A stretch of DNA of 64,000 nucleotides from NCBI GenBank assembly GCA_035573675.1, contig DATMAB010000015.1, positions 124,001 to 188,000 on the forward strand, read 5' to 3'. Position numbers and translations under genes: made by a program. The notes beneath the pieces were generated by a model, which saw only the letters and a list, made by a program, of their open reading frames with translations, had not been told where the DNA came from and did no database searches. The DNA is from Terriglobales bacterium (GTDB lineage: Bacteria > Acidobacteriota > Terriglobia > Terriglobales > Acidobacteriaceae). Positions 16,799-49,175 of this stretch are shown here, in pieces; the stretch's first letter is position 1; every line of letters begins with the position of its first letter.

Positions 16799-17206
16799 AT
16801 GACAACCGTCCTCAAAACATGTCTCGCAGGCATCGCCATCCTGCTGCTGGCTGCCTCGGTGGCTGCGCAGAAACCAGCGTCCGGACCGGTTCCCGAATAC
16901 AACCTCAAGGAAGAGGTCAGGCTGCAGGGCACGGTCGAAACCATCAAGGAGTACGAGTGCCCGATCAGCGGCACTGTGGGCACGCACCTGGTGTTCAACG
17001 TCGATGGCAAGAAGTACGAGGTTCACGTTGCCCCTCTCAAGTGGCTGGAGGAGTACGGCATCCACCTGAAGCAGGGGGACAGCATCATCCTCATTGGCGT
17101 GAAGACCACGTACCGCGATTTGCCCGCCATCCTGGCCCGCGGCATCGAGCGCGAGAACGACGTCTTCTTCTTCCGCGATAAGAAGGGCCGCCCGCTCTGG
17201 CGCTGA
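16799..17206 (+). CDS. Small exported protein, unknown (OB-fold-like)
   Basis: 135 aa with a signal peptide (MTTVLKTCLAGIAILLLAAS) and a compact beta-rich body (VRLQGTVETIKEYECPISGT, KKYEVHVAPLKWLEEYGI, GDSIILIGVKTTYRDLPAIL) that reads like a small OB-fold nucleic-acid- or cation-binding domain. Function not recognised. GGAGGTGAGG immediately precedes the ATG. It is followed by a strong terminator, so it is a single-gene unit. Confidence 0.75.
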   Translation: MTTVLKTCLAGIAILLLAASVAAQKPASGPVPEYNLKEEVRLQGTVETIKEYECPISGTVGTHLVFNVDGKKYEVHVAPLKWLEEYGIHLKQGDSIILIGVKTTYRDLPAILARGIERENDVFFFRDKKGRPLWR

Positions 17207-17353: not shown

Positions 17354-17407
17354 TGGAGCGGGAGACGGGGATCGAACCCGCGACATCCAGCTTGGGAAGC
17401 TGGCGTT
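17354..17407 (-). pseudogene. tRNA-Gly(CCC), 3' part of a split gene
   Basis: On the minus strand this holds a complete anticodon arm (CCAGC TTCCCAA GCTGG, anticodon CCC), variable loop, T arm, the 3' acceptor strand CTCCCGC (17358-17364), discriminator T and encoded CCA (17354-17356). The sequence 5' of AACGCCAGC does not form a D arm or acceptor strand, so this piece alone cannot be a tRNA. The missing 5' part is at 18970-18999. Confidence 0.9.
17399..17407. repeat. Left attachment core of the tRNA-Gly insertion
   Basis: GCTGGCGTT, repeated in the same direction at 18970-18978. On the tRNA strand it is AACGCCAGC, which spans the end of the D stem, base 26 and most of the 5' side of the anticodon stem. 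Joining the flanks through one copy restores a perfect tRNA-Gly. Confidence 0.8.
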
Positions 17408-17545
17408 GCTTCCGCTCCCTTGCCGCAATGCTATCACTTCAAAGAGATTAGCGCGTTTGTGTAGTAATAATGCGGCTTTCGCCAGCTTCTACGGCTTACA
17501 CACAAAACACAGCGCACACACGTTTAGACGCGTTTGCGCCTTTTT

Positions 17546-17572
17546 TGGACAGTGTGGACAGTGCGTTATACT
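17546..17572 (+). promoter_or_regulatory. Promoter of the element-borne tRNA-Gly
   Basis: TGGACA (17546-17551), 15 bases, TATACT (17567-17572). The tRNA begins 12 bases later, the usual distance for a tRNA leader. Confidence 0.6.
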
Positions 17573-17583
17573 TGCTCTGACGA

Positions 17584-17658
17584 GCGGGTGTGGCGCAATG
17601 GTAGCGCATCGGCTTCCCAAGCCGAGGGTTGCGGGTTCAAATCCCGTCGCCCGCTCCA
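17584..17658 (+). tRNA. tRNA-Gly(CCC), complete, carried by the insertion
   Basis: 75 nt with encoded CCA. Acceptor GCGGGTG pairs with CGCCCGC (one G-T wobble), D stem GCGC/GCGC, anticodon stem TCGGC/GCCGA around TTCCCAA (anticodon CCC), T arm GCGGG TTCAAAT CCCGT. The body differs from the host tRNA-Gly that the insertion breaks, but the anticodon is the same. The antisense strand of its T arm and acceptor carries the last codons and stop of the neighbouring protein gene. Confidence 0.97.
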
Positions 17659-18470
17659 GTACCCTTCCCTTCGCGCGCTAGTTGTTTCTTCCAAGCGTTA
17701 GTGAATTTCCCCTCGACATCTTCTACAAGCGCGTCGAACTTCTTTCCGCATAGCGCGTTGTAACCCTTTAGTGCTTGCACAAAACTCCCCATTGCCAACA
17801 TGAGGGCTTCTCCGGCCCAGTGGTCTGATGGCGCAACATCGAAGTCAACGATTGTCTCGTCAGCAGAGACTTCAAGTTGGCTCGAAAGGGCTTGAACATT
17901 GGCGTGGTGCATGGAAGACGCTTGCTCGTAATAGGAATGCAGGTCAGCCATGCCAATGTCTTCCGCCATGTTGCGTAGCGGCGTTTTTGACCAAGAATCA
18001 CGAATCTTGCCTTTTTCCGTTTGATAATTCGGCTTCACTCGCGCGAAGTTGTCCTCAATCTCCTTCACCTTCTTCGGGTCCAGCTTCTTTAGTTCTTCAG
18101 GGGCGTGTTCAGTCATCCAGTCAACGGATCGCTTCGCCAACACCCAGTGGAACTCGTAATAGGTGTCGAACACCTCTGGATGTTTTTGGATATATCCGAC
18201 GATAACCGCGCCTTCGTACATGCTACGAGCGACACGCAATGCGTCGCCACCGTAACCATTGGCGACAAGAACTACGACGGCGCCAAAGGAATTAGCGACC
18301 ATCTTTGTTAGCAACCGGAGAACCCATTGCTTCTTGTCAGCCGCTGCCTCCGCGAGGATTGCATTGAGGGCCTTTTCGCACTCTGCTGCTGCCGCGAAAC
18401 AATCGGGAAATTTCTCTGCCGTGGGCTTCCAGTATTCTGGAAAACCAGGAATGAATTCTAATCTCGCCAG
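17637..18470 (-). CDS. Unknown protein on the insertion (DUF5677-like)
   Basis: The coding frame is open from after a TGA at 18471-18473 to the stop at 17637-17639, about 277 codons, and reads as protein throughout (e.g. KFPDCFAAAAECEKAL, ANGYGGDALRVARSMYEGAV, SMHHANVQALSSQLEVSAD). It loosely resembles DUF5677 proteins. There is no ATG, GTG or TTG before TTG 18314, yet 50 coding-like residues precede that codon. An ATG at 18474 sits one base out of frame, so CTG 18470 or a frameshift is likely. The last eight codons are antisense to the tRNA-Gly. It directly follows the XRE gene, probably on one transcript. Confidence 0.6.
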   Translation of the reverse strand: MARLEFIPGFPEYWKPTAEKFPDCFAAAAECEKALNAILAEAAADKKQWVLRLLTKMVANSFGAVVVLVANGYGGDALRVARSMYEGAVIVGYIQKHPEVFDTYYEFHWVLAKRSVDWMTEHAPEELKKLDPKKVKEIEDNFARVKPNYQTEKGKIRDSWSKTPLRNMAEDIGMADLHSYYEQASSMHHANVQALSSQLEVSADETIVDFDVAPSDHWAGEALMLAMGSFVQALKGYNALCGKKFDALVEDVEGKFTNAWKKQLAREGKGTGAGDGI

Positions 18471-18476
18471 TCATGG

Positions 18477-18698
18477 TCACTCAATAAAGAACGTCACCGG
18501 TCTGCCGTACAGGTTCGCAAACGCCGATAGTTCGATAGCGTCCACCCGCCGCTCGCCTGACTCGCATTTTGAAACATAGGATTGCGGCTTTCGCAAGGCG
18601 CGTGCCACTGCCGCCTGTGTCAAGCCAGCTTGCTGACGGGCGGTCTTCAGTCGCCGAAGCAGCAAGCTGTAGCGGCGAGTTTCGCTCTGGTTCTTCAA
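18477..18698 (-). CDS. XRE-family transcriptional regulator on the insertion
   Basis: 73 aa, almost entirely one Cro/C1-type helix-turn-helix: LRRLKTARQQAGLTQAAVAR, then KPQSYVSKCESGERRVDAIE. Such small regulators usually control the genes of the mobile element that carries them. It starts with TTG 18698 and is followed on the same strand by the unknown protein. It diverges from the excisionase-like gene across 46 bp that hold an inverted repeat. Confidence 0.85.
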   Translation of the reverse strand: MKNQSETRRYSLLLRRLKTARQQAGLTQAAVARALRKPQSYVSKCESGERRVDAIELSAFANLYGRPVTFFIE

Positions 18699-18728
18699 GC
18701 TAACTCACCGTACCAACCTGTGCTACAG

Positions 18729-18745
18729 TATCCCAAACTAGGATA
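18729..18745. promoter_or_regulatory. Inverted repeat between the XRE and excisionase-like genes
   Basis: TATCC (18729-18733), seven bases, GGATA (18741-18745). It lies in the 46-bp divergent gap and touches the ATG of the excisionase-like gene. It is a plausible operator for the XRE protein, by position only. Confidence 0.4.
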
Positions 18746-18966
18746 TGCCAGTGGGACTAATAGAGCAGTTGGAAGCCCGCGAGCGGGCGATGACAGTGGG
18801 CGAAGTAGCCGCCCTGCTCCGTCTCAGCGGCAGCGCGGTTTACCCTCTTGCCGCGACAAACCGCATCCCCTCTTTCAAGATTGGCGCGGCGGTCAGATTT
18901 GATCCTGGGGACGTCGCAAACTGGCTTAAGTCAAAAATGGGCAAGAAACCCAGCTTTTCACCTTAG
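18745..18966 (+). CDS. Excisionase-type helix-turn-helix protein
   Basis: 73 aa of the MerR-like HTH_17 fold: MTVGEVAALLRLSGSAVYPL, then NRIPSFKIGAAVRFDPGDV and NWLKSK. This is the typical 'excisionase family' pattern, in which the second helix and the wing bind the att site. Its stop lies three bases before the right attachment core. GTG 18751 has AGGA seven bases before it and may be the true start. A plain DNA-binding regulator is the other reading. Confidence 0.8.
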   Translation: MPVGLIEQLEARERAMTVGEVAALLRLSGSAVYPLAATNRIPSFKIGAAVRFDPGDVANWLKSKMGKKPSFSP

Positions 18967-18969
18967 CTT

Positions 18970-18999
18970 GCTGGCGTTCTACCGCTGAACTACTCCCGC
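18970..18999 (-). pseudogene. tRNA-Gly, 5' part of the split gene
   Basis: On the minus strand: acceptor GCGGGAG (18993-18999), TA, D arm GTTC AGCGGTA GAAC, then GCCAGC of the anticodon stem, after which the sequence departs from any tRNA. GCGGGAG is fully complementary to the CTCCCGC of the 3' part at 17358-17364. Its inner end is the right copy of the core GCTGGCGTT (18970-18978). Confidence 0.9.
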
Positions 19000-19083: not shown

Positions 19084-20670
19084 GTGAGAGGGTCGGGGTT
19101 GGCCTATAACGATCTGCGTGAATGGATGGCAGCGTTGGAGCGCGCGGGAGATCTGAAGCGCGTGCGCGCCGAAGTCGATCCCATCCTGGAGATCACCGAG
19201 ATCACCGACCGCGTGTCGAAGTCCGGCTACGGCGGCCGGGCGGGGAAGGCGGGCGGGCCGGCGCTGCTGTTCGAGAACGTCAAGGGACATCCGGGCGCGC
19301 GGGTGCTCATCAATCAGTTCGGGTCGGCGCGGCGCATGAACCTGGCGCTGGGCGTGGAGTCGCTCGACGAGATCGCGGCGCGCCTGCACGCGTTCCTCGA
19401 CGTCAAGTCGCCGCAAGGCCTGCTCGACAAAGTGAAGATGCTGCCCATGCTGGCGGAAATGGGCAAGTTCTTCCCCAAAACAATCTCCAGCGGACCATGC
19501 AAGGAAGTGGTGAAGAAAAGCGGCTTCTCGCTGCTGGAGTTTCCCGTGCTCAAATGCTGGCCCAAGGACGCCGGACGCTTCATCACGCTGCCCTGCGTCG
19601 TGACGCGCGATCCGAAAACAGGGAAGCGCAACGTGGGCTGCTACCGCATGCAGGTCTACGACGAGCGCACCGCCGGCATGCACTGGCAGCGGCAAAAGAT
19701 CGGGGCCGAGCACTACCGGGAAATGCTGCGCGCGGCGGCCGCGGCCGGCGAAGCGGGCAAGGCCGCAGCTGCGGTGGACATCATGGCGCGCTCAGGCGGC
19801 GGCTCCGTCCCGCTGGCCGGCGCCCCGGCGGGGAAGATGGAAGTGGCGGTGGCCATCGGCACCGATCCGGCGCTCACGTTTTCTGCTATTGTCCCGGCGC
19901 CGCCGGACGTCGAGGAATATCTCATCGCCGGGTTCCTGCGGCAGGCGCCGGTGGAGCTGGTGAAGTGCGAGACCGTGGACCTGGAGGTTCCGGCCACGGC
20001 GGAGATCGTGCTCGAAGGCTACGTCCAGCTCGACGAACTGCGCACCGAAGGCCCCTTCGGCGACCACACGGGTTTTTACTCGCTGGAAGATGAATATCCT
20101 GTGTTTCACATTACCTGCATCACGCACCGCAAGGACCCGATTTACGCCACCACCATCGTGGGCAAACCGCCGATGGAAGACGCCTGGATGGGAAAGGCGG
20201 TGGAGCGCATCTTCCTGCCGCTGATGAAGCTGACCATCCCCGAGCTGGTGGACATCAACCTGCCGGTGGAAGGCATCTTCCACAACCTGATGCTCGTGTC
20301 CATCCGCAAGTCGTACCCGGGGCAGGCGCGCAAGGTGATGAACGCCATCTGGTCGCTGGGCCAGGCGATGTTCACCAAGGTCATCGTGGTGGTGGACGAA
20401 GACGTGAACGTGCAGGACCCGGGCGAGGTGGTGCTGAAGGCGCTGAACCATATCGACCCGGAGCGCGACATCCAGTTCACCCTCGGACCGGTAGATTCGC
20501 TGGACCACGCTTCGCGCCTGCCCAACTACGGCTCCAAGATGGGCATCGACGCCACGCGCAAGTGGCCCACCGAAGGCTTCACGCGGCCCTGGCCGGACGA
20601 GATCGTGATGGATGAGAAGACCAAGCGGCGGGTGGATGAGATGTGGAAAAGCCTGGGGTTAGATTTGTGA
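19084..20670 (+). CDS. UbiD-family decarboxylase
   Basis: 528 aa. Prenyl-FMN-dependent decarboxylase of the UbiD family. Visible marks are LLFENVKGHPGARVLINQFG, the central CVVTRDPKTGKRNVGCYRMQ with its Asn and Arg for cofactor and metal, and the catalytic Glu region RTEGPFGDHTGFYS. In ubiquinone makers UbiD removes the carboxylate of 4-hydroxy-3-polyprenylbenzoate; in menaquinone (futalosine) makers a relative does the last decarboxylation. The window does not say which applies; no ubiX is nearby. GTG 19084 or TTG 19099 may be the start; TATAAT lies at 19060-19065. Confidence 0.92.
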   Translation: MRGSGLAYNDLREWMAALERAGDLKRVRAEVDPILEITEITDRVSKSGYGGRAGKAGGPALLFENVKGHPGARVLINQFGSARRMNLALGVESLDEIAARLHAFLDVKSPQGLLDKVKMLPMLAEMGKFFPKTISSGPCKEVVKKSGFSLLEFPVLKCWPKDAGRFITLPCVVTRDPKTGKRNVGCYRMQVYDERTAGMHWQRQKIGAEHYREMLRAAAAAGEAGKAAAAVDIMARSGGGSVPLAGAPAGKMEVAVAIGTDPALTFSAIVPAPPDVEEYLIAGFLRQAPVELVKCETVDLEVPATAEIVLEGYVQLDELRTEGPFGDHTGFYSLEDEYPVFHITCITHRKDPIYATTIVGKPPMEDAWMGKAVERIFLPLMKLTIPELVDINLPVEGIFHNLMLVSIRKSYPGQARKVMNAIWSLGQAMFTKVIVVVDEDVNVQDPGEVVLKALNHIDPERDIQFTLGPVDSLDHASRLPNYGSKMGIDATRKWPTEGFTRPWPDEIVMDEKTKRRVDEMWKSLGLDL

Positions 20671-22131: not shown

Positions 22132-22211
22132 CCGCAGTTCACGCCTTATTCTGCGCCGTTCGCCGCCCGTCGGCTTGCCCGCGCTTGGGGCCGGGTGTTA
22201 ACTTCTTGGAC

Positions 22212-22300
22212 AGCATCAGGGAGCGACCCGCGCAGGCGGGTCCGGCAACCTGGCCGCGAGACTGCCAAGGTGCCCTGAGCGCAGCAGGCGCTCGATGTGC
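22212..22300 (+). ncRNA. SAM riboswitch aptamer (SAM-I/IV clan)
   Basis: P1 TCAGGG (22216-22221) with CCCTGA (22273-22278); P2 GACCCGC/GCGGGTC (22225-22242, GCAG loop); the clan signature CCGGCAACC (22242-22250); P3 ACCTGGC with GCCAAGGT; the second signature GGTGCC (22269-22274); then a GAGCGC/GCGCTC hairpin (22277-22292). The two signatures and the three-way fold are as in SAM-I/SAM-IV riboswitches, which bind S-adenosylmethionine. The methionine synthase gene downstream fits. The exact Rfam class cannot be settled by eye. Confidence 0.8.
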
Positions 22301-22333
22301 GGAGAGAACTCCGAAAGAAAAGTCTCGAGAGTG

Positions 22334-49079: not shown

Positions 49080-49112
49080 CGGCGCAGTCGCGAAGCGACG
49101 GAAACTCGAAAG

Positions 49113-49175
49113 CCCAGCACGTCAGTGCTGGGTAGGGTGAAATTAAGCACGATCGGAGTCCTGCAGGGACGAAAC
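49113..49175 (+). repeat. Paired-hairpin element B, copy 1
   Basis: CCCAGCAC/GTGCTGGG (49113-49132, loop GTCA), about 25 bases, then CGGAGTCC TGCA GGGACG (49155-49171). The inverse-strand relative is at 57701-57761. No gene lies in this 110-bp gap. Confidence 0.75.

Follow-up and report, generated by a model that had tools for sequence, protein, structure and literature searches.

The window analysed here is a 64,000-nucleotide stretch of a Terriglobales bacterium (contig DATMAB010000015.1, positions 124,001 to 188,000, assembly GCA_035573675.1). It contains a tRNA-Gly(CCC) gene split in two by an insert of 1.57 kb, within which a second, complete tRNA-Gly(CCC) gene is found. The insertion is probably the relic of a tRNA-dependent integration, from which the integrase has been lost, while the carried tRNA has stayed as the sole copy. 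The insert seems to bring a substitute for the gene that it destroys, the copy of the invader having apparently taken over from that of the host. Coordinates refer to the window, unless a genome or contig is named.

The split tRNA-Gly(CCC) gene and its junctions

The two parts of the host gene both lie on the minus strand. The 3' part (17354-17407) includes the anticodon loop, the T arm, the 3' acceptor strand and the encoded CCA, and the 5' part (18970-18999) includes the 5' acceptor strand, the D arm and the 5' strand of the anticodon stem, as established from the sequence, from the ARAGORN prediction on the rejoined gene and from comparison with relatives. Each part contains one copy of a 9-bp direct repeat, GCTGGCGTT, read directly from the sequence and not assigned to a strand, at positions 17399-17407 (left junction) and 18970-18978 (right junction). 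The insert, counting one copy of the repeat, spans positions 17408-18978, for a total of 1571 bp. The split, its coordinates and the repeats had been described in an initial annotation of the same DNA, and were all found to be correct. When the insert is excised in silico, by rejoining the flanks through one copy of the core, an intact tRNA-Gly(CCC) of 75 nt is called by ARAGORN; when the whole window is used, neither half of the split gene is called.

The rejoined gene was compared with those of 24 relatives, drawn from a set of 40 chiefly because they matched well, in all of which ARAGORN calls an intact Gly(CCC). Six of them (G019, G036, G002, G030, G004 and G012), which span five other genera, G030 and G036 belonging to the same one, contain an intact gene identical at 75/75 positions; for the remaining 18, identity ranges between 62 and 74 of 75. 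Given the complete identity to intact homologues, the tRNA gene must have been whole prior to the insertion, and both halves are still unchanged with respect to the intact genes of relatives. Base composition also supports the proposal of the initial annotation that a mobile element was inserted into a tRNA gene until then whole: the G+C content of the insert is 53.7%, against 63.9%, and none of 313 stretches of equal length from the window is as low.

No functional tRNA is rebuilt at either junction: ARAGORN makes no call, the junction RNAs do not show a tRNA fold, and Rfam reports only a D-armless tRNA fragment, which corresponds to the 3' part (32.8 bits). The arrangement of a canonical tRNA-restoring island, with a regenerated full tRNA at one end and a displaced fragment at the other, is thus absent here, unlike in G012. 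A short common core (about 10 bp) inside a host tRNA gene is one of the marks of tRNA-dependent lysogeny, and the 9-bp GCTGGCGTT, which presumably is the crossover core, is of this kind. Two further candidate features were considered and set aside. The repeat may be imperfectly extended over 18 positions, the extension beyond 9 bp not being significant alone (p 0.29), and a putative remnant of a tRNA 3' half at the right end of the insert is also not significant (p 0.17).

The tRNA gene carried by the insert

The complete tRNA-Gly(CCC) of the insert (17584-17658, plus strand), which had been missed in the initial annotation, is called by ARAGORN and matches the Rfam tRNA model with 71.6 bits. 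It folds as a cloverleaf, and 55 of its 75 bases are identical to those of the broken host gene. It is also the sole intact Gly(CCC) found in the genome, whose assembly consists of 28 contigs and is rated 99.11% complete. By using Rfam, 43 tRNA matches were identified genome-wide, 41 of which could be typed by ARAGORN: among them there are one Gly(GCC), one Gly(TCC) and one Gly(CCC), the latter being the carried tRNA. As no other Gly(CCC) is present among the 41 typed matches, the disrupted host tRNA is otherwise non-redundant. The two untyped matches, both without an ARAGORN call, correspond to the split gene and to a fragment on contig 1. At a locus of contig 1 (L051), a weak tRNA-like fragment at locus positions 858-922 lies beside an integrase fragment, with a fluoride riboswitch nearby (1411-1488).

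By chance, the one Gly(CCC) of the genome would fall within a 1.57-kb segment of its 3.16 Mb with a probability of about 0.05%, calculated post hoc as a simple proportion. GGG accounts for 60 of the 195 glycine codons in four neighbouring open reading frames (ORFs). The host presumably uses the carried tRNA, which, judging from the sequence, would be expressed from the insert. The left arm of the insert (17408-17583, no strand assigned) may contain both an arm of the attachment site and the tRNA promoter, a TATACT motif having been spotted by eye at positions 17567-17572. The claim of the initial annotation that the insertion destroys the gene therefore has to be divided. The target is indeed not restored at either junction; the tRNA function is not simply lost, since the complete tRNA-Gly(CCC) of the insert can replace it.

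The donor of the carried tRNA was not traced in the relatives, plasmids and phages searched. The best matches reach 87% in relatives (G396, G018 and G283, that of G018 being a Gly(GCC)), about 83% on actinobacterial records among plasmids, and 77-83% in phages. An exact 38-mer of the carried tRNA gave no match in the genome contig collection, and a 33-mer gave none in viral contigs.

Proteins encoded by the insert

Three ORFs of the insert were scanned against family libraries; the remaining ones, mostly overlapping, fell outside these scans. The longest, a DUF5677 reading frame (17637-18470, minus strand; Pfam PF18928, 1.1e-22), has no standard in-frame start codon at its N-terminus. The last codons of the frame overlap the end of the carried tRNA in antisense orientation (17637-17658), as if the original C-terminus had perhaps been exchanged on acquisition of the tRNA by the element. 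The second ORF (18477-18698, minus strand) encodes an XRE-type helix-turn-helix protein of 73 amino acids (Pfam HTH_31/HTH_3). The third (18745-18966, plus strand), also of 73 amino acids, is a DNA-binding protein of the HTH_17 or excisionase family (Pfam HTH_17; TIGR01764 above cut-off; PHROG excisionase), with 3 bp separating its stop codon from the right core. PHROG assigns the XRE protein to regulator families and the HTH_17 protein to excisionase families; neither a structural gene nor an integrase was seen among the three proteins. No defence role emerged, the only PADLOC match of the DUF5677 protein being weak (E 0.0069) and those of the XRE protein generic. Identification of the HTH_17 protein as MADS1 was rejected, its scores being under the cut-off of the model. 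Arm-type repeats were also looked for beside the core, and weak 10-mer pairs were found at most.

The genomic context of homologous proteins was analyzed at the 20 best-scoring HTH_17 sites outside the own genome, taken from a much longer match list. A tyrosine integrase was found within 1.5 kb of the HTH_17 homologue at 15 of the 20 sites, in 9 of the 15 tail to tail, according to a profile built from seven seed ORFs, two of them being one gene, and without a control set. For nine of the 20 sites, the surrounding 40 kb were inspected: a tRNA gene is present in three regions and absent from six, and a direct repeat marking an element at a tRNA end was found in two, at a tRNA-Ser in G289 and at a tRNA-Pro in G244. 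The G289 element (L105, genome positions 851598-877149), of 25 kb and with its end repeat in the tRNA-Ser, contains an integrase and homologues of HTH_17 and of DUF5677, and may be related to the complete element that was lost. On the basis of its composition, of the excisionase-family protein and of the sites at which homologues are found, the insert looks like the remnant of an integrative element.

Further copies or relatives were looked for in three sets of sequences. In the own genome, the DUF5677 and the HTH_17 protein have a single match each. In the genome contig collection, 75 stretches fitted the DUF5677 pattern and none of them was a relative. In viral contigs, by the patterns used, neither protein was found, nor was a 20-mer of the predicted phage attachment site (attP).

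The same tRNA site in relatives

The tRNA-Gly(CCC) gene is an integration hotspot in relatives G012, G031 and G033. G012 has an island of about 20.6 kb (L021/L022). There, an integrase gene reads toward an intact tRNA-Gly(CCC), the stop codon of the former directly adjoining the 3' end of the latter, and about 20.6 kb away lies a displaced 3' half, beginning close to the anticodon loop. In G031 (L023/L024), one integrase lies beside the intact tRNA and another beside a displaced 3' half. Both G031 and G033 (L025) have a contig on which the 3' half occurs twice. The cases of G012 and G031 look like ordinary gene-restoring integrations. Relatives have, at this tRNA, elements with the usual 3' half, which begins at the anticodon loop. 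The initial annotation, in placing the core of the insert away from the 3' end that is usually rebuilt, was right for this locus. Upstream of the anticodon loop, the five 3' halves in relatives have 4, 0, 0, 0 and 0 bases identical to the tRNA, against 9 at the left junction in the window. A search of 349 genomes of the class for a 5' half with any base but T after it gave one genome, the own one; being an exact-pattern search, it misses diverged tRNAs and halves preceding a T, such as those of G004 and G024.

In these two relatives, which belong to two genera, a second copy of the 5' half occurs upstream of the intact tRNA-Gly(CCC) (G004, L033 3353-3390; G024, L032 6634-6666), and the DNA between the copies is hairpin-rich and repeat-like. 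A different type of tRNA-Gly(CCC) was observed in G013 (L030 8513-8587) and G006 (L031 8136-8210), with 62/75 bases identical to the usual gene and 63/75 to the carried one; these may be further replacements of the host gene. In the own genome, tyrosine integrases are encoded at C15:107600-108511 and C15:381987-382826, beside tRNA-Arg(CCT) and tRNA-Gln(CTG), and the first one is 38% identical to the G012 integrase located at tRNA-Gly(CCC).

The genes on either side of the insertion are syntenic with those of G024 around its tRNA-Gly(CCC). On the right, ubiD (19084-20670, plus strand, identified by Pfam) adjoins the intact tRNA in G004 and lies about 2 kb from it in G024. On the left, an ORF at positions 16799-17206 (plus strand) is also found in G001, which belongs to the same genus, with syntenic DNA on its left, and was not seen at the G024 locus. 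Comparison with related genomes, as suggested in the initial annotation, did retrieve the intact tRNA-Gly in relatives of other genera; it failed for the same-genus G001, which breaks at the locus. Elsewhere in the window, a SAM-I/IV riboswitch (22208-22329) is located upstream of a metH-like gene, so labelled from its translated sequence, and an Acido-Lenti-1 RNA, by its family name suggestive of Acidobacteriota, is found at positions 49086-49132.

Proposed mechanism and alternative explanations

According to the explanation that we favour, an integrative element or prophage would have entered the host tRNA-Gly(CCC) by recombination at a short attachment core. The core would consist of 9 bp, AACGCCAGC, of the 5' anticodon-stem side of the tRNA, now present at both junctions. 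The host tRNA would thereby have been broken and not rebuilt, and the complete foreign tRNA-Gly(CCC) of the element would act as its substitute; breaking without rebuilding would have been tolerable because the element carried such a tRNA. Subsequent decay by internal deletion would have removed the integrase and most other genes, leaving the excisionase-like gene, the repressor-like gene and one cargo gene. Its status as the only remaining Gly(CCC) of the genome would keep the carried tRNA in place, presumably through selection. The recombination would have been that of a tyrosine integrase, later deleted; as no integrase was found in the insert, this mechanism is one that we infer. The function outlined for the system is likewise deduced from sequence data.

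Several observations weigh against this explanation. No integrase was found in the window by a motif scan and an ad hoc integrase profile, both run over ORFs from six frames, and the count of integrases adjacent to HTH_17 homologues has the limits given above. The genome contig and viral contig collections searched yielded no intact relative of the element, and in G289 excisionase-like and DUF5677 homologues co-occur in an apparently ordinary element. No promoter was called for the carried tRNA by a promoter scan, the TATACT at 17567-17572 included. The point of crossover is not fixable from one copy. In the same-genus G001, for which no Gly(CCC) was found, the contig ends 12 bp past the left flanking ORF; because of this break, no close site, either empty or occupied, is readable. 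Finally, the split gene points away from ubiD, while in G004 and G024 the intact tRNA has the same direction as ubiD, and the locus must therefore also have been inverted or moved at some time.

Among the alternatives, a rather unlikely one starts from an ordinary element whose crossover took place in the anticodon loop (TTCCCAA), the tRNA being restored by the 3' half that the element supplied. The integrase and this 3' half would later have been lost together from the right end in a single deletion, which would account for the absence of both. The carried tRNA-Gly(CCC) would be cargo that made the loss bearable, and the 9-bp repeat a match on the arm side of the integrase site rather than the crossover core. 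The gene-restoring elements found at the same tRNA in G012 and G031 agree with such a history, as does the position of the excisionase-like gene, whose end is 3 bp from the broken tRNA half, in a place where the integrase could be expected. However, the match of the carried tRNA to the target would then be a coincidence, the 9-bp identity at the junction is longer than the 0-4 bp seen upstream of the anticodon loop in five 3' halves of relatives, and the right end shows no significant trace of a 3' half.

It is less probable still that the 1.57 kb are a complete, minimal, non-autonomous element, provided with its own excisionase-like factor, repressor, attachment site and replacement tRNA, and still moved in trans by the integrase of another element. 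Its frames and tRNA look intact, save for the uncertain start of DUF5677, the cores are perfect at both ends, and other tyrosine integrases are encoded in the genome; yet none of the integrase matches of the genome is located at this tRNA. The single genomic match to each of DUF5677 and HTH_17 also implies that there is no second copy of the insert, and the lack of both proteins and of the predicted attP among viral contigs, by the patterns used, points in the same direction.

An assembly chimera, or a carried tRNA unrelated to the insertion, is very improbable. The locus is known from the assembly alone, and the same-genus assembly breaks here, but both flanks are syntenic with G024 around its tRNA-Gly(CCC), a misassembly would not give a perfect rejoining through a 9-bp core, and a cognate tRNA inside the insert would by chance be an event of about 0.05%. 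The least credible possibility, a split or intron-bearing tRNA with halves joined as RNA, would suit their unchanged sequence, but can practically be dismissed, as Rfam, at E values up to 1, shows no group I or II intron match, none of the three proteins scanned with Pfam is a homing endonuclease, an intact substitute tRNA is present, and trans-splicing of tRNA halves is not known outside archaea.

Comparison with known systems

tRNA-dependent lysogeny has been described for the actinobacteriophages Fionnbharth, Whirlwind, Mollymur and Gaia (PMC10865867). The phage tRNA is needed for viable lysogens (PMC10865867). According to Table 2 of the same paper, the cores used are 8-17 bp long; phage Omega is left out of this range, since Table 2 lists it as tRNA-dependent, with a 44-bp core, while in the text it is said to rebuild the tRNA. 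Close phage relatives integrating at one tRNA may either rebuild it or not (PMC10865867). The insert resembles these systems in its short core, whose 9 bp fit the 8-17 bp range, in the failure to rebuild the tRNA and in the presence of a cognate tRNA within the element. It differs in its size of 1.57 kb, in the absence of integrase and phage structural genes, and in its target, tRNA-Gly(CCC); the five users of Gly(CCC) listed in Table 2 of PMC10865867 rebuild the tRNA, unlike the insert. Because the integrase is absent, the insert is regarded as similar to tRNA-dependent lysogeny and is not classed as a member.

Two prophages of Sinorhizobium meliloti break tRNA-Leu(UAG) 026 centrally; the tRNA-Leu(UAG) that they carry is foreign, its identity to the broken gene being 80.6% at most (PMC11476347). 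The central break and the foreign tRNA with the same anticodon are shared with the insert, for which 55/75 bases are identical; the S. meliloti prophages were scored as intact, whereas here a remnant without integrase is found. According to PMC10865867, prophage Lj965 of Lactobacillus johnsonii also does not rebuild the tRNA and carries a cognate one, but is a prophage, in another bacterium. Ordinary tRNA-restoring islands (Islander, PMC4383910) share with the insert the use of a tRNA as target, and what look like such islands occupy the same tRNA in G012 and G031. They differ from it in having a regenerated tRNA with a displaced fragment, while here both halves stay broken. Acidobacteriota are not named in the titles and abstract openings of the 18 papers listed by a full-text search for tRNA-dependent lysogeny.

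Significance

An obvious caution is that a tRNA scan reports Gly(CCC) in this genome, so that an event of this kind stays hidden. If the insert should prove to be still mobile, its carrier would have become dependent on it at once, the only Gly(CCC) of the host being broken and a substitute supplied, a form of addiction without a toxin. If our explanation is true, the locus shows tRNA-dependent integration after the death of the element, with the tRNA of the invader left as the only copy of the host, and a supposedly conserved tRNA gene would have given way to a foreign gene that shares 55 of its 75 bases. The phenomenon would then extend beyond actinobacteria, Lactobacillus and Sinorhizobium, the hosts named in the literature considered here. 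Since the same tRNA hosts ordinary restoring elements in relatives, this one site could be used to study how elements switch from one strategy to the other.

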